Below, one piece after another: positions 12,179 through 18,200 of a stretch of 64,000 bases of DNA; position 1 is the stretch's first letter, and every line of letters starts with the position of its first letter. The translations under genes were made by a program, and so were the position numbers. The notes under the pieces are model-generated. The model did no database searches, had not been told where the DNA came from, and saw only the letters and a program-made list of their open reading frames with translations. The stretch is taken from assembly GCF_000426665.1 (NCBI RefSeq), contig NZ_AUFU01000001.1, positions 1 to 64,000 of the forward strand, written 5' to 3'. The DNA is from Centipeda artemidis DSM 19719. Lineage in GTDB: Bacteria > Bacillota > Negativicutes > Selenomonadales > Selenomonadaceae.

Positions 12179-12190
12179 ATCATTTGAAGA

Positions 12191-12227
12191 GAACTGCTGT
12201 ATATTCATGTGCGGCAGTTCTTTTTTT
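12191..12227 (+). terminator. intrinsic terminator of clpB
   Basis: GAACTGC (12191-12197) pairs with GCAGTTC (12214-12220), extendable by two pairs including a G-T, followed by seven T residues. Confidence 0.88.
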
Positions 12228-12238
12228 ATGCTATTTTC

Positions 12239-12267
12239 TTGCGATACGAGGAAAAACATACTATAAT
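12239..12267 (+). promoter_or_regulatory. promoter of the envelope operon
   Basis: TTGCGA (12239-12244) and a perfect TATAAT (12262-12267) are spaced by 17 bases. Five genes in one direction with short gaps or overlaps follow, up to the terminator at 17249-17283. Confidence 0.75.
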
Positions 12268-12301: not shown

Positions 12302-14014
12302 TTGAAATCATCTCTGCTGCGCATATTCTGGCAGCTGTTCAAAGGATATTGGAGCTCGGCGGAGAAATGGCGCGCACGTGGACTGTTCGCGGCGGTCATC
12401 GCGCTGAATCTCGCGAGCGTTTACATACTCGTCCGCATCAACGATTGGTACCGCGTCTTCTACGACGCCCTCCAGGCGTATGACTGGGCGTCGTTCTGGC
12501 CGCTCGTCGGCGAGTTCACAGTACTCGCGATGGTCAATATCTTCATCTCGGTCTATGCCGTCTATCTCCGGCAGATGCTCACCATCAAGTGGCGCACATG
12601 GATGACGGATCAATACCTCTCACGTTGGATGCGCGGGCAGACCTACTACCGTCTGCAGGTGCTGCACAGCGACACGGACAACCCCGATCAGCGCATCAGC
12701 GAGGACATCAATCAGTTCGTAACACTGACATTGACGCTCCTCATCGGCATCCTGCGCCAGCTCACAACGCTCGGCGCATTCGGCGTCGTCCTATGGAACC
12801 TCTCGGGCGTACTGACCGTTCCCGTCGGCAGCACAGAGTTTGTAATTTACGGCTACATGTTCTGGCTCTCGCTCATCTACTCCGGGCTTGGTACCTGCTT
12901 TGCCCATTTTGTCGGGCGAAAGCTCATCCGGCTCAACTTTGACCAGCAGCGCTATGAAGCGGACTTCCGTTTCAGCATGATGCGCGTCCGCGAAAACAGC
13001 GAGAGCATCGCATTTTATCGTGGCGAACAGGCGGAGTCCGTCGGCTTCAAGGAGCATTTTGCAAACGTCATCAAGAACTATTGGGATCTAATGCGCCGGA
13101 CAAAGCTGCTGAACTTCTACGTCAACGGCTATGGACAGCTCGCCATCATCTTCCCGCTCATCATGGCGGCGCCGCGCTACTATGCGGGTGAGATCGCGCT
13201 CGGCGGACTCATGCAGACCATGACCGCGTTCGACCGCGTGCAGGGCGCGCTCTCGTTCTTCGTCGACGCTTATGACTCCGTCGCACAGCTCGCGGCAGTT
13301 CTGCACCGACTCGGCGGCTTTACAGAGCACATGAAGGGTGCCGCACAGGTGACGGGAGAAATTGAACGCGTCGAAGGCGCAGGAAAAGATCTCACACTGG
13401 AAAATCTCACCGTTGCCCTGCCGAGCGGAACGGAACTCCTCTCGCAGTGTACGCTGTCCCTGCCTCAGGGGGCACACGTCCTCGTGACAGGCGTCTCTGG
13501 TGCGGGAAAGAGTACGCTTCTTCGTACGCTCGCCGGCATATGGCCGTACGGCAGCGGCAGAATCACCACACCGCAGAACATGCGCCGTCTCTTCCTCCCC
13601 CAGCGCCCGTATCTGCCGCTCGGCACACTCCGCCGCGCCCTCTTCTACCCGCGCACGAGCACGGAAAATGATGCGGAGACTGCACGCGTCCTGCGCCTTG
13701 TAGGACTGGAACAGTTCGCCGCACGTCTCGACGAAACGGACGACTGGAGCCGCATTCTCTCGCTTGGCGAGCAGCAGCGGCTTGCTTTTGCACGCGTCCT
13801 GCTCATTCGCCCCGACTGGATTTTCCTCGACGAGGCTACCTCTGCCCTTGATGAACCGCGCGAACGCGCGCTTTATGATATACTCAAACAGGAACTCCCG
13901 ACCGCAAGCATCATCAGCGTCGGACATCGATCGACCCTTTTTGCTGTTCATGACACGGAGCTCCGTCTCAGCCATCAAACGTATACCTATCAGGAGATCC
14001 CCCATGAATCGTAG
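12302..14014 (+). CDS. ABCD/BacA-type ABC transporter, fused permease and ATPase
   Basis: A 570-residue half-transporter. Residues 1-300 form about six membrane helices of the ABC_membrane_2/SbmA-BacA class, including the conserved NSESIAFYRGEQAE motif shared with peroxisomal ABCD and YddA proteins. The ATPase (about 350-570) has Walker A GVSGAGKST followed by LAGIWPYGSG, signature LSLGEQQR and Walker B WIFLDEATSALDE. Relatives move bleomycin, cobalamin, antimicrobial peptides or acyl-CoA. The start is TTG 12302, seven bases after GGGGG. It is the first gene of the operon and overlaps the amidase gene by 11 bases. The cargo is unknown; the neighbours point to the cell envelope. Confidence 0.88.
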   Translation: MKSSLLRIFWQLFKGYWSSAEKWRARGLFAAVIALNLASVYILVRINDWYRVFYDALQAYDWASFWPLVGEFTVLAMVNIFISVYAVYLRQMLTIKWRTWMTDQYLSRWMRGQTYYRLQVLHSDTDNPDQRISEDINQFVTLTLTLLIGILRQLTTLGAFGVVLWNLSGVLTVPVGSTEFVIYGYMFWLSLIYSGLGTCFAHFVGRKLIRLNFDQQRYEADFRFSMMRVRENSESIAFYRGEQAESVGFKEHFANVIKNYWDLMRRTKLLNFYVNGYGQLAIIFPLIMAAPRYYAGEIALGGLMQTMTAFDRVQGALSFFVDAYDSVAQLAAVLHRLGGFTEHMKGAAQVTGEIERVEGAGKDLTLENLTVALPSGTELLSQCTLSLPQGAHVLVTGVSGAGKSTLLRTLAGIWPYGSGRITTPQNMRRLFLPQRPYLPLGTLRRALFYPRTSTENDAETARVLRLVGLEQFAARLDETDDWSRILSLGEQQRLAFARVLLIRPDWIFLDEATSALDEPRERALYDILKQELPTASIISVGHRSTLFAVHDTELRLSHQTYTYQEIPHES

Positions 14015-14891
14015 AGACTTTCTGCGCCGTCTGGCACTCGTTGGCATCGGCGCCGCCGCACTCCCCTTCTTCCCCTCTGTCACAGAGGCTTCGTGGTACA
14101 TCCCGACCGTGCTTCCCGGCGTATCCGTTCGCCCCACACACCTGAAATTTGGCCCACTTGAGAACCGTTTTTTCACAAACAGCCTCGTCATACACCACAT
14201 CGGCAGTACAAACGACGACGTATCGGCGGAGACCGTCCATCAATGGCACCTCAATAACGGCTGGGCGGGCATCGGCTATCACTTCCTCATCCGCAAGGAC
14301 GGCACCATCGAGGAGGGGCGTCCCCTTGGTACCGTCGGCGCGCATGTCTACGGCGAGAACCGTCATACCGTCGGCATCAACATCGTTGGAAATTTTGAAA
14401 TGGCGGCGCCCACCGAAGCGCAGCTCACTGCCGCCGCGCATCTCATCGCATCGCTCTGCACCGTCTACCAATTTGATCCCGTATGGGAACAGACCATATT
14501 CGGACATCGCGATCTCAGCGCAACCGCCTGTCCCGGCCGCTATCTCTACGCGCAGCTTCCGGGCGTCGTAGACCGTGCGCGTGTCTTCTACGGATCGGAG
14601 GAACTATCCGCTGAAAGAGCGCGCATCGCGCAGATGGAGTGCGAGGACAAGGAGCGCCAACGGGCGCTCACGCGTGCCAAAATGGAAGAGGCGCGCCGCA
14701 AGAATATGGCGAACGCGCGCCCGTCGCATCCGACGCCGAGCGCCCCGCAGTCTCCCCTGCCAAAGCCGACACCAAAACCGCAGCCGCCGAAAGCAGCGCG
14801 TCCACAGCCCGAGATCAAAAAGCCCAACATGCGCCCCGACATCCCGAAGCCGCAGAATATAAAGCCGACGCAGCGCAGGATCGCCGACTAA
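14004..14891 (+). CDS. Tat-exported N-acetylmuramoyl-L-alanine amidase (Amidase_2/PGRP fold)
   Basis: A 295-residue exported enzyme predicted to cut the bond between muramic acid and the stem peptide. The N-terminus MNRRDFLRRLALVGIGAAA is a twin-arginine signal. The amidase domain spans about 50-195, with zinc ligands in LVIHHIG and GHRDLSATACPG and the GIGYHFLIRKDG strand pair. The region after about 205 is a charged helix and then a long Pro/Lys-rich tail with repeated PKP and PQP, likely a wall- or membrane-spanning tether. The start ATG 14004 has AGGAGA at 13992-13997 and lies inside the end of the transporter gene, so the two are coupled. The tail has no recognised domain. Confidence 0.88.
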   Translation: MNRRDFLRRLALVGIGAAALPFFPSVTEASWYIPTVLPGVSVRPTHLKFGPLENRFFTNSLVIHHIGSTNDDVSAETVHQWHLNNGWAGIGYHFLIRKDGTIEEGRPLGTVGAHVYGENRHTVGINIVGNFEMAAPTEAQLTAAAHLIASLCTVYQFDPVWEQTIFGHRDLSATACPGRYLYAQLPGVVDRARVFYGSEELSAERARIAQMECEDKERQRALTRAKMEEARRKNMANARPSHPTPSAPQSPLPKPTPKPQPPKAARPQPEIKKPNMRPDIPKPQNIKPTQRRIAD

Positions 14892-14925
14892 GACGCGATA
14901 AATACGATAATAGGAGGTGACGCAG

Positions 14926-15273
14926 TTGGGATTTCATTATCGCTTTTTTGACCGAGACATGGAGAAAACGGACGAGATGGGCATCCCGCTCACACGCGCC
15001 GACATTGATGCGCGTGAACACGCAAGAGAGCCGGAGCGTATCTTTTCGCGCGGCGAGCAGACTGGCATTGTACTCTCCTCCGTAATTTTCGCCTACGGCT
15101 ATATGGAAGGCGATCTCTCCCTCGTATTCTTCTGTCTCTCCTTCCTCATCTTCGAACTGCGCAAAATTGTACGCCGCTATACGGGTAAATACGGACAAAA
15201 TATTGCAAACGCCATGCACGGATTCAGCATCGCGCTCATCCTTGGTGCGCTTGCCATGGTACTCACGACATAG
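14926..15273 (+). CDS. small membrane protein of unknown function
   Basis: A 115-residue protein not recognised as a known family. The first 50 residues are charged and soluble, with LTRADIDAREHAREPERIF. Two hydrophobic segments follow (about 52-75 and 95-115) with a short basic loop between them (RKIVRRYTGKYG). The start is TTG 14926, eight bases after a perfect AGGAGG (14912-14917); the GTG at 14917 overlaps that site and is unlikely. It sits between the amidase and VTT genes and ends 10 bases before the latter's start, so it is very probably translated as part of the operon. Confidence 0.75.
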   Translation: MGFHYRFFDRDMEKTDEMGIPLTRADIDAREHAREPERIFSRGEQTGIVLSSVIFAYGYMEGDLSLVFFCLSFLIFELRKIVRRYTGKYGQNIANAMHGFSIALILGALAMVLTT

Positions 15274-15283
15274 GAGGTTCTAT

Positions 15284-16006
15284 TTGAAACAACATATGGG
15301 CATGGGCGTCATGAAAGTCGGCGCCGCCGCCGCGATCGTCCTTCTCTTCGGTATCATCCACCTTGCCGCCCCGGGATTCCTGCCCGAGCTCTTCGCGCTC
15401 CTCTCGACCGGAGACATCTCCGCCACGGTCGAGTATATCCGCGGCTATGGAGACTGGGCGGCGGTCTTCGCATTTTTCCTCACGCTCTTTGTCAACGCCC
15501 TCGGATTCCCGCCCGCGATCATCTTCTCTACGGCAAACGTCATGCTGTTCGGCATTGTCCCGGGCATCATCCTCTCCTGCGCGGCGGAGACCGTCGGCGT
15601 CACAATCGCCTTCCTGCTCATGCGCTTCTACTTCCGCGACGCGGCGGAGAAAGTAATTATAAAGAGCCCCTTCCTCTCAAAAATTGACCGGTACAGCGGA
15701 ACAAAAGGATTCTTTGTCATGCTCATCGCGCGCATGATTCCCTACGTCCCATCCGCGTTGCTCAACGCCGTCGGCGCACTCTCCTCGATTCGCCTGCGCG
15801 ACTATGTAATCGCCTCGTTCGTGGGGAAATTCCCCTCCACGGGCATCGAAGCGATCATCGGACACGACCTCATTGTCAAGCAGCCGGACAATACCCGCCT
15901 CGTTGTTGTCATCATCTGCGCGATCGTTCTCATCGCAGGTGCATGGCGCTATGAAAAACATGTCATGAAGGCAGAATCCGTGCATGCGAAGGAGGATGCA
16001 TCATGA
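15284..16006 (+). CDS. TVP38/TMEM64 (VTT-domain, DedA-like) membrane protein
   Basis: A 240-residue integral membrane protein with about six hydrophobic segments. The VTT core includes NALGFPPAIIFSTANVMLFG, the re-entrant region, and later ARMIPYVPSALLNAVGALS with the conserved arginine and proline. The superfamily includes lipid scramblases and undecaprenyl-phosphate recycling flippases. The start is TTG 15284, six bases after GGAGG; the gene before ends at 15273 just within that site. Its stop overlaps the phosphoesterase start by four bases. In this operon a role in lipid-carrier movement for the envelope is plausible but unproven. Confidence 0.85.
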   Translation: MKQHMGMGVMKVGAAAAIVLLFGIIHLAAPGFLPELFALLSTGDISATVEYIRGYGDWAAVFAFFLTLFVNALGFPPAIIFSTANVMLFGIVPGIILSCAAETVGVTIAFLLMRFYFRDAAEKVIIKSPFLSKIDRYSGTKGFFVMLIARMIPYVPSALLNAVGALSSIRLRDYVIASFVGKFPSTGIEAIIGHDLIVKQPDNTRLVVVIICAIVLIAGAWRYEKHVMKAESVHAKEDAS

Positions 16007-17268
16007 CACGCAGACATTTCTTACAGGCCGCCACGAGCGCCGTTCTATCTATGGGGCTCGGCGGTCTCTTTTCATCTCATCATGCGGCGGCACACATGCG
16101 TGAAATCAAATATCTGCGGCAGATCGTCACGCACGATCCGCAGACGACGCGCATGATCCAATGGGACAGCGTGAACCTCCTCCCGGACGTGCGCGTCGAG
16201 GTGCGCCCCGCGGGAACGCATCCGCATATCGATATCTACATTCCGTCCTATACCTATTTTGACATAGATGATGCGCCGCAGTACACCTACCACGCGGAGA
16301 TACGTGTCCCACGAGGCGGCGGCGACTATCGCGTCACATCCGCGCACGGCACAAGTGCGTGGATACCGATCGCACAACCCGACCGAAACGGTACCGTACG
16401 CGCCCTTCTCTTCTCCGACAGTCAGTGCGGCGAGAGCTATGACGTGTGGCGCGGCCTCTATCATGCGGCGTGGCGGCGCCATCCTCATGCCGATTTTGCG
16501 GCACTCGTCGGCGACCTTGTCGACAACGGCGAATCCTCGTGGCACTGGGAGAGTTTTCTCTCCGCAATGGGGGGTGCGGACAGTCCCCTCGCGCGGCACA
16601 TCCACGCCCCCGCCCTCGGCAATCACGAATACTACGGCCTCAGCTGGACGGCAGTGCCGCCCGCACGCTATCTGCATACATTTGCCCTGCCCGATAACGG
16701 CAGTACGGCTTTTCCCGGGCACTACTATTCCTTTACCATGGGCGTCGTGCATTTCATGGTACTCGATACACAGTTTCTCGAACTCGGCACACGCGGCTCA
16801 TTGCTCAAGGTGGAGCAACTTGCGTGGCTGATCCGGGATGCAGCGGAGTCTCATGCTCCTTGGCGCGTCGTCCTCATGCACAAGGATATCCTCGCCTGCG
16901 GGGACTACCAGACCGAGCAAGGCACGACCGCAGGCATCAGCGACGTCGGGCGCGTCTTTATGGACACATTTGACGCGCTCGGCATCGATCTCGTCGTCTC
17001 GGGGCATATCCACACCTACCGCCGCCGCCAAATCCGCGCACAAAAAACGGATCAAAACGGCACCCTCTACCTCCTCGCGGGACCCGCGGGCAACGAATAC
17101 TTCGACGTCCCTGCCGAGTCCTACGACCTCGCCGCCTCCGCGAATCCCGCGCCTTCCAACTACCTCTATATGGAGGCAAATGCAAAAGAGCTGCACGTCG
17201 CCTGCGAAACGGCGGACGGCACGGTCATCGATACGGTAACACTGAGAAAATCAAAACCACCCGCATAG
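16003..17268 (+). CDS. Tat-exported calcineurin-like metallophosphoesterase
   Basis: A 421-residue exported phosphoesterase. The N-terminus MTRRHFLQAATSAVLSMGLG is a twin-arginine signal. Residues about 40-125 resemble the beta-sandwich of purple acid phosphatases. The catalytic domain shows the metal motifs in order: FSDSQCGE, LVGDLVDNG, LGNHEYYG, VLMHKD and SGHIHTYRR. Relatives remove phosphate from nucleotides, phospholipids or lipid carriers outside the cytoplasm. ATGA overlap with the VTT gene shows co-translation. The stop codon lies inside the terminator loop. Confidence 0.9.
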   Translation: MTRRHFLQAATSAVLSMGLGGLFSSHHAAAHMREIKYLRQIVTHDPQTTRMIQWDSVNLLPDVRVEVRPAGTHPHIDIYIPSYTYFDIDDAPQYTYHAEIRVPRGGGDYRVTSAHGTSAWIPIAQPDRNGTVRALLFSDSQCGESYDVWRGLYHAAWRRHPHADFAALVGDLVDNGESSWHWESFLSAMGGADSPLARHIHAPALGNHEYYGLSWTAVPPARYLHTFALPDNGSTAFPGHYYSFTMGVVHFMVLDTQFLELGTRGSLLKVEQLAWLIRDAAESHAPWRVVLMHKDILACGDYQTEQGTTAGISDVGRVFMDTFDALGIDLVVSGHIHTYRRRQIRAQKTDQNGTLYLLAGPAGNEYFDVPAESYDLAASANPAPSNYLYMEANAKELHVACETADGTVIDTVTLRKSKPPA

Positions 17269-17283
17269 CGGGTGGTTTTGATT
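17249..17283. terminator. bidirectional terminator
   Basis: A 16-bp perfect stem: AATCAAAACCACCCGC (17249-17264) pairs with GCGGGTGGTTTTGATT (17268-17283), with an ATA loop. The stop codon of the phosphoesterase is at 17266-17268. A/T tracts on both arms let it serve the converging minus-strand gene as well. Confidence 0.85.
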
Positions 17284-17298
17284 ATTGCATTTTAGCGT

Positions 17299-17622
17299 TT
17301 AATGCCGCCAAGGTTTACGGTTGTTGTAATCGCGCATGATACGCTTGACCGCTTGGTCATGTCGTTTTTGTTCCTCGCGCATGGAGCGGTTATACTTCTC
17401 TTGATCGCCGTCGCGGCGGAAGTCAAACTTGATTCTGCGGACGTTCTCGTCGTGGATGCGGTCTTCTTCCTTCATACGGAAGCTGTACTCGTTCGACGCG
17501 CCGTCCTCATAGGACAGCCGTGCCTCCGACGACGCGGCATTTGCGGGGGGCGCTGTGGCGGCAATAATCCCGAACCCCATCACAGCGGCAATGGCGGCAG
17601 TAAAATAACGGCTTTTCTTCAT
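17299..17622 (-). CDS. small exported charged protein, unknown function
   Basis: A 107-residue protein with a classical signal peptide (MKKSRYFTAAIAAVMGFGII, cleavage expected near PANA-ASS). The mature part is very rich in R, D, E and K and is probably helical, with KRHDQAVKRIMRDYNNR near the end. No family is recognised. The start is set at ATG 17622, ten bases after AAGGAAG; the GTG three codons upstream is too close to that site. It stands alone between a bidirectional terminator and the usp locus. Confidence 0.65.
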   Translation of the reverse strand: MKKSRYFTAAIAAVMGFGIIAATAPPANAASSEARLSYEDGASNEYSFRMKEEDRIHDENVRRIKFDFRRDGDQEKYNRSMREEQKRHDQAVKRIMRDYNNRKPWRH

Positions 17623-17719
17623 GTTTCCCACACTTCCTTAAACAAGATCTATAAACATATTTACTTTAGCATATATCCCTTGGAGGGCATTTAAGAACAT
17701 GTAAACACGTTATTAAAAG

Positions 17720-18200
17720 TCATTTGCTGAGAAATACGGGACAATGCGAGTGTTTGCTGACATACGAGGACACGCTGCCAAAGGCAAGTCGCTCGAACGT
17801 GCCGAAGCCGCGTGTGCCCATGACGATGAGGTCGCTCTCCTCCTCAGCGGCGACGGCAACGATGGTCTCGCCGGGATTTCCTTCGGCGACGCGCGGATGG
17901 GCGCGCACGTTGTGCGGAATCTCGTGCATCAGCTCCGCGAGGAGGCGATAGGCGGAAATCTTCAGTTCGGCGGGCAGATAGCCGCTCGTGCTGACCTGCT
18001 CGAATGCCGAGACATGTGCGTCGTAATCGACGACCATGAGTACTGTTAGCTCCGCCCCCCGTACGGCGCCCAAGCTCAATTGCCCATGTTGCGGCATGGA
18101 ACGACGCATGAGAGCCGTCGATAGCGACGAGGATGCGCTCGCATCGAACGTCGTGCGCGGGGCGACTCTTGATCTCTGCGATCAGTGATGCCGTGTCCAT
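17720..18200 (-). pseudogene. universal stress protein (UspA family), frameshifted in a G6 run
   Basis: Two overlapping reading frames together make one UspA protein of about 159 residues. The N-terminal frame (from ATG 18200, AAAGGAGG site) gives RILVAIDGSHASFHAATWAI and IELGRRTG. The C-terminal frame gives GAELTVLMVVDYDAH and later the ATP-site motif MGTRGFGTFERLAFGSVS. They join exactly if the G6 run (C6 on plus at 18055-18060) were G5. The rest of the gene is intact, which suggests a recent slip, a phase-variable tract or a sequencing error. It is the last gene after hlyD and the permease. Confidence 0.85.

Follow-up and report, generated by a model that had tools for sequence, protein, structure and literature searches.

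A five-gene envelope operon of oral Selenomonas and Centipeda links a BclA-type transporter, two Tat-type hydrolases and an unnamed family of small membrane proteins

To our knowledge, the recycling of the cell wall in diderm Firmicutes is poorly known, and the role in Negativicutes of BclA, the name given to SbmA/BacA-like transporters with an ATPase domain, is still open. BclA proteins are reported in 7 of 10 Negativicutes species, and that of Methylomusa anaerophila provides a weak and variable rescue of the peptide hypersensitivity of a bacA mutant (PMC12003926). Mycobacterial BacA, a relative of the transporter described below, transports cobalamin, bleomycin and Bac7 (PMC10960864). In Agrobacterium, the ATP-binding cassette (ABC) importer YejBEF-YepA replaces AmpG in peptidoglycan recycling (PMC9790009). 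Of the DedA/VTT membrane proteins, three subfamilies are described, and it is argued that the COG0398 members are unlikely to be undecaprenyl phosphate (UndP) flippases and may be phospholipid scramblases; within the Negativicutes, 56/62 carry one COG0586 member and 43/62 one COG0398 member (PMC10127716, Table 1). Here, we present an operon of five genes, A to E (12302-17268), found in Centipeda artemidis DSM 19719 on positions 1-64,000 of the forward strand of contig NZ_AUFU01000001.1, the whole stretch analysed and hereafter called the window.

By its sequence, this operon appears to join two modules, A-B-C and D-E, which occur apart in other genera. Its new item is C, a small membrane protein of an unnamed family, whereas A, B, D and E belong to known families. 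As a possible and still tentative function, we propose that B would free wall peptides, that A would import them with C as a partner, and that D and E would be co-expressed for envelope maintenance. No description of the five-gene set, of its modules or of the C family was found in the open-licence literature, in agreement with the original prediction, which knew of no described system with this set.

Architecture and conservation of the operon

Gene A (12302-14014, TTG start, 570 residues) encodes the BclA-type ABC transporter and gene B (14004-14891, 295 residues) an Amidase_2 protein of the N-acetylmuramoyl-L-alanine amidase type, predicted to be exported by twin-arginine translocation (Tat). 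They are followed by gene C (14926-15273, TTG start, 115 residues), by gene D (15284-16006, TTG start, 240 residues), a VTT-domain membrane protein of COG0398 (YdjX/YdjZ/TVP38) type, and by gene E (16003-17268, 421 residues), a metallophosphoesterase, also predicted to be Tat-exported, with the two-domain purple acid phosphatase (PAP) fold and without the GDxxY tyrosine. All five are co-directional on the plus strand and closely spaced, A and B overlapping by 11 bases and D and E by 4, with gaps of 34 bases between B and C and 10 between C and D; the starts of C and D were picked by ribosome-binding site and by comparison with relatives (the mechanical list of open reading frames begins C at 14917).

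Just ahead of A lies a predicted sigma-70-type promoter (TTGCGA-17-TATAAT, 12239-12267, plus strand) with 10 of 12 consensus positions, which ranks first among the 8 promoter-like sites of both strands between 10500 and 19000 (3.6 expected by chance); the same consensus scan gave no plus-strand site between 12543 and the end of E. Upstream, a terminator-like hairpin ending in a T run (12186-12225, plus strand) would part the operon from clpC. This hairpin came from the fold calculation (-25 kcal/mol and z -7.58 for 12180-12235) and is not listed by the promoter/terminator scan. A 16-pair stem (17249-17283, plus strand; -26.5 kcal/mol, z -8.1) forms the predicted operon terminator. Because of the promoter before A, the hairpin after clpC and the second hairpin ending E, the five genes are judged, from these signals, to be a unit with its own start and stop. 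The one good promoter, the overlaps of 11 and 4 bases with short gaps and the shared terminator, all part of the original prediction, are thus borne out. Between 9000 and 20000, no Rfam regulatory RNA family, cobalamin riboswitches included, reached its gathering score.

With the 115-residue protein C as query, all 13 other genomes searched within the genus (oral Selenomonas/Centipeda) gave a match, and the order A-B-C-D-E and the strand are kept in 13/13, so that the genes are not scattered in close relatives. Counting the window genome, the unit is unbroken in 14/14 genomes, all of which share the promoter core (TTGC, 17 bases, TATAAT). Among the 13 relatives, the A/B overlap measures 11 bases in 12 and 4 in the remaining one, and the D/E overlap 4 bases in 12 and 1 in the remaining one. 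Next to A, a divergent exbB-exbD pair (families MotA_ExbB and ExbD) faces the operon in 13/13 relatives. In the window genome, the upstream neighbour of the operon is clpC, a gene not found near the operon in the 13 relatives, and the closest relative of exbB maps to another contig, next to a Glycos_transf_3 gene. By this comparison, a rearrangement has broken the window neighbourhood just outside the promoter, between it and exbB-exbD, and has left A-E whole, which argues for a unit.

The conserved exbB-exbD pair brings in nutrient scavenging as an explanation, in which A would import cobalamin or another hydrophilic solute whose passage through the outer membrane is powered by ExbB/ExbD, while B, D and E would be accessory. 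The cobalamin transport by mycobacterial BacA (PMC10960864) fits this explanation, as does the kinship of A with ABCD4, another sequence relative that is named lysosomal cobalamin transporter in the PDB. However, exbB lies on another contig in the window genome, the operon holds no receptor gene, the Rfam search gave no cobalamin riboswitch, and ExbB/ExbD were not found at the examined loci of other genera; we consider nutrient scavenging distinctly unlikely.

Further features adjoin the operon. Near the exbB promoter, most of the 13 relatives show an inverted repeat (AAYGATA...TATCATT-like, recognised by eye), and this operator-like repeat upstream of A was dropped as a part of the operon because it adjoins the divergent exbB promoter and because a similar repeat stays with exbB on the other contig of the window genome. 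Downstream and convergent, a small secreted-looking protein of 110 residues (17299-17631, minus strand) is kept in place in 4/13 relatives; beyond it, a universal-stress-type gene (17720-18200, minus strand) is spread over two overlapping frames, with its start in one and the rest in the other, as if frameshifted or mis-sequenced.

The C family and the two modules

The N-terminus of protein C is charged, and three long helices are predicted (AlphaFold2 model; predicted local distance difference test, pLDDT, 83; predicted template modelling score 0.60). For the window protein, no Pfam or NCBIfam model exceeds its cut-off, so the description of C in the original prediction as an unrecognised membrane protein stands. 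An assignment to DUF4260 was rejected (16.2 bits for a gathering score of 27, and 1/23 homologues at E up to 1), as was any other known family, no Pfam match being shared by more than one of the 23 homologues (best E 0.0055). Fold searches with the model gave weak helical-bundle matches (Foldseek best E 0.58; VIA best Z 9.0, in the common range for helical bundles) and establish neither a known nor a new fold for the predicted structure. Searching with an alignment of 23 members, we found C in 168/189 Selenomonadaceae genomes and in 92/99 of those of good quality, in single copy except in G125 among the matches listed, and all 25 matches obtained from 150 genomes across the class fall within Selenomonadaceae. 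A match in a Planctomycetota contig, listed alongside five loci of oral Selenomonas/Centipeda, spans 24 residues at 58% (E 2e-5, calculated on candidate stretches alone) and was taken as chance.

The neighbourhood of C was compared at 109 hand-chosen loci, 13 within the genus and 96 outside, out of 167 relatives with a C match. These loci come from 26 of the 27 genera in which C was matched (g24 is absent), g12 being represented by a sample of 17; weak matches without a listed position were mostly left out, contig ends truncate most of the 14 stretches that fall short of 10.3 kb, and distances refer to open frames, not to start codons. At 51/109 loci, C follows B directly (at most 60 bases between frames), and at 20 it follows A directly (at most 300 bases), that is, directly downstream of one or the other at 71; at one more it is near A. 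Outside the genus, the corresponding numbers are 38 and 20 of 96, and adjacency to A or B is seen in 14 of the 26 genera. The link of C with B and A thus recurs across genera and is not universal.

Outside the genus, D keeps apart from this group, and no D homologue was found near C at any of the 96 loci of other genera. A D homologue is listed for 22 family genomes outside the genus; D and E are immediate neighbours in 4 of these, and a further 3 have them no more than 5 kb apart, for a rough chance of 0.4% per genome of lying within 5 kb. The original prediction had treated the five genes as one unit; the sequence signs of a single transcription unit support it, and the idea of an indivisible system is weakened by the separation of D from C outside the genus.

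This separation also supports the view that there is no shared pathway, A-B-C and D-E having come under one promoter in the genus ancestor and having been kept together by chance or simple co-expression. Each part also occurs alone, and no reaction known to us connects an amidase with a COG0398 protein and a phosphatase. Such a history fits less well with a unit unbroken in 14 genomes, or with the window rearrangement that spared the five genes. Linkage across the modules is also found elsewhere: in g12, an E-type gene precedes C on its strand at a distance of 2.5-3.6 kb, with other genes between, at 8/17 loci (L105-L107, L109-L111, L116, L167), and in G052, a genome of another family, D and A homologues are 3.8 kb apart. 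The g12 genes are counted as linkage rather than as unrelated paralogues, since they come nearest, with 53-58% identity, to the E that accompanies D in that genus. On balance, we hold the absence of any shared pathway to be rather doubtful, though a serious contender.

Other genes recur around these loci. In other genera, A, B or C often stands upstream of two nucleotidyltransferase genes that resemble glgC-glgD by eye (for example, L044, L047, L060, L068, L069), and the L044 pair matches Pfam NTP_transferase; these neighbours suggest a shared older neighbourhood. Proteins of one family, of 218-230 residues with an N-terminal hydrophobic stretch, are encoded divergently from A (L046, L050, L051, L055, L060) or from B (L056), and the L060 member has no Pfam match at E 0.001. 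In g7 and g20, AMMECR1/LigB-type genes (L049, L058, L073, L124-L126; identified with Pfam on L058, by eye on the others) and a radical-SAM-like gene occur near C, and in G029 AMMECR1/LigB-type genes and a radical-SAM-like gene lie near D and E.

The products of genes A, B, D and E

The original prediction of an ABCD/BacA-type transporter is supported by the domains of A (PF06472, 200.7 bits for a cut-off of 24.4; PF05992, 148.8 for 24; PF00005, 63.9 for 25), which combine an SbmA/BacA-type transmembrane domain with a C-terminal ATPase domain. The latter carries GVSGAGKST, LSLGEQQR and LDEATSALD, which we take to be the usual ABC ATPase motifs. The best solved match of A, aligned over residues 7-556 (E 1.3e-103), is PDB 6tqe, presumably Rv1819c of Mycobacterium tuberculosis. 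A is ordinary for the class, because a close homologue is carried by 53/60 genomes compared, including 16/23 outside Selenomonadaceae; a second copy with 43% identity is encoded elsewhere in the window genome.

Given these relatives, the operon might instead serve antimicrobial-peptide handling, with A importing host or bacterial peptides from the periplasm and B, D and E repairing or remodelling the envelope under the same stress. The named relatives include what we take to be oral species, a habitat that counts in favour of this explanation. BclA proteins handle such peptides in symbionts, and both their occurrence in Negativicutes species and the weak, variable rescue by the Methylomusa protein mentioned above point the same way (PMC12003926). 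However, A is equally present in relatives with D and E elsewhere, and the operon has a plain sigma-70 promoter with no Rfam RNA between 9000 and 20000 (protein regulators were not searched for). We consider antimicrobial-peptide handling doubtful, and place it below the absence of a shared pathway.

B matches PF01510 (Amidase_2) with 76.3 bits for a cut-off of 26. Its H64, H168 and C176 align with H17, H122 and C130 of T7 lysozyme, which we take to be the zinc ligands of that enzyme, and the catalytic set is complete (H64, Y92, H168, C176). Among the 51 B proteins encoded beside C, the GY[HN][FY] and H...CP motifs are present in all, and the first histidine pattern and the RRxF[LIV] twin-arginine motif in 50 each. 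The Tat signal TIGR01409 (cut-off 16.7) scores 19.6 bits in B and 21.1 in E, and tatC is present in the genome, in keeping with the two Tat-type hydrolases of the original prediction. The tail of B, of about 95 residues, is rich in Pro, Lys and Arg, as counted in the window protein; among the 51, a long tail is limited to the 13 genus members, whose proteins measure 280-294 residues from the signal, versus 189-250 in the others.

D (PF09335, 82.1 bits) matches, in pairwise comparison with Escherichia coli proteins, YdjZ (E 6e-20) and YdjX (E 3e-12) but not YqjA (E 1.4). The residues E39, D51, R130 and R136 are essential in YqjA and YghB (PMC10846249); D keeps the equivalent of R130 only and lacks those of E39, D51 and R136, as do 9/9 of the D sequences aligned. 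With YdjX/YdjZ as nearest relatives, the acidic tip residues absent and one of the arginines missing, D has the features by which PMC10127716 delimits COG0398, an assignment made from pairwise matches and residues. In a second VTT protein of the genome, both arginines are conserved and the two other positions are acidic; since its matches to YqjA (E 5e-11) and to YdjZ (E 3e-11) are about equally good, its own assignment rests on these residues. As far as they can be read from sequence, the two proteins fit the pattern of one COG0586 and one COG0398 member (PMC10127716). PMC12893004, looked through for the DedA residues, gave no match to these terms.

These residues bear on the explanation, drawn from the original prediction, in which D would be an UndP flippase and the operon would serve to export or recycle a lipid-linked compound of the envelope. 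The VTT domain of D, the phosphatase-type Tat protein E and the proximity of D and E in 7 of 22 family genomes outside the genus (4 adjacent, 3 within 5 kb) would be compatible with it. However, 3 of the 4 essential residues are missing, D is kin to YdjZ and not YqjA, PMC10127716 puts D-like proteins outside the UndP flippases, and the other VTT protein of the genome retains the charged positions. We therefore rejected D as an UndP flippase, and the lipid-linked compound is by far the least likely of the explanations considered here. A search for PF04018, which we take to be DUF368/PopT, gave no match in the window genome, this model being positive in 3/14 control genomes.

E matches PF00149 with 43.2 bits, and its predicted structure (pLDDT 88.6) aligns with kidney bean PAP over 363 residues (VIA-align Z 38.5, root-mean-square deviation 2.6) and by Foldseek with two-domain plant PAPs (E 2.7e-22); the comparison with PhoD gave Z 24.4. 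At the GDxxY site, whose tyrosine we take to be an iron-binding residue of PAPs, E has GDLVD, with D174 invariant in 17/17 homologues, and its first motif is DxQ. The purple-acid-phosphatase-like nature proposed originally thus holds for the two-domain fold and fails for the tyrosine ligand, and E as a canonical PAP was rejected; because the iron-binding tyrosine is replaced by aspartate, we call E a PAP-fold metallophosphoesterase and not a purple acid phosphatase.

A candidate recycling pathway and its described relatives

In the pathway that we tentatively prefer, B, exported folded by Tat, would cut the bond between N-acetylmuramic acid and L-alanine in the wall or its fragments and release stem peptides into the periplasm. 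A, as a relative of promiscuous importers of peptides and hydrophilic solutes, would bring these and similar foreign peptides into the cytoplasm, and the two together would stand in for AmpG-type recycling. C may partner A or B as a small protein of the inner membrane. The role of D would be phospholipid scrambling, and E would dephosphorylate periplasmic substrates, both as co-expressed envelope maintenance; most likely, these two share the compartment of the A-B pathway, where lipids and phosphate are their targets, and are not steps of it. In favour of this proposal stand the gene order kept in 13/13 genus relatives, the recurrent place of C directly behind B or A in other genera, the complete catalytic residues of B, the lack of a match to the AmpG model discussed below, the transport of cobalamin, bleomycin and Bac7 by mycobacterial BacA (PMC10960864) and the Agrobacterium importer that replaces AmpG (PMC9790009); for A and B jointly, it is the most economical explanation.

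Several observations weigh against this proposal. No A and no B stands in the required position relative to C within the stretch at 37/109 loci, mostly in g12 (15/17) and g7 (6/6), then in g18 and g50 (3 each) and at single loci elsewhere. C was found in 0/23 class genomes outside the family, though A is found in 16/23 of them, and G020, G022 and G034, the representatives of three genera, have A and B homologues with no detected C, so that A and B can do without C. TIGR00901, which we take to be the AmpG family, gave no match in the window genome (Opp-type import routes were not searched for); as this model matched only 5/14 control genomes, and 2 above cut-off, the missing AmpG counts for little. 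Recycling is only slightly more likely than antimicrobial-peptide handling or plain co-expression.

A bolder version would see in C a subunit dedicated to coupling a BclA-type importer with a periplasmic amidase in an AmpG-independent peptidoglycan recycling special to Selenomonadaceae, to which the oral genus would have added a lipid scramblase and a phosphatase, so that one promoter would command wall, lipid and phosphate turnover. We regard this version as improbable, and rank it just above nutrient scavenging. A and the amidase, repeatedly linked to C, provide a testable candidate pair, and C is a new family worth naming. If the recycling proposal is true, the transporter family of A, so far associated mainly with antimicrobial peptides and cobalamin, would gain a housekeeping role.

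Compared with known systems, B shares the domain and the zinc ligands of the T7-lysozyme/PGRP-type Amidase_2 amidases and differs from them by its Tat signal and its Pro/Lys/Arg-rich tail. E shares the fold of the two-domain plant PAPs and of PhoD, from which the aspartate in place of the GDxxY tyrosine and the DxQ first motif set it apart. D resembles the COG0398 subfamily (YdjX, YdjZ, TVP38/TMEM64) in its sequence match and its missing acidic residues, and differs in its operon setting beside a phosphoesterase. A and YejBEF presumably belong to different transporter families. In the recycling proposal, A would be alike to the YejBEF-YepA system of Agrobacterium as an ABC importer in place of AmpG (PMC9790009). 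Finally, A has in common with BclA and mycobacterial BacA an SbmA/BacA-type transmembrane region joined to an ATPase domain, and is distinguished from them by sharing one operon with an amidase, C, D and E.

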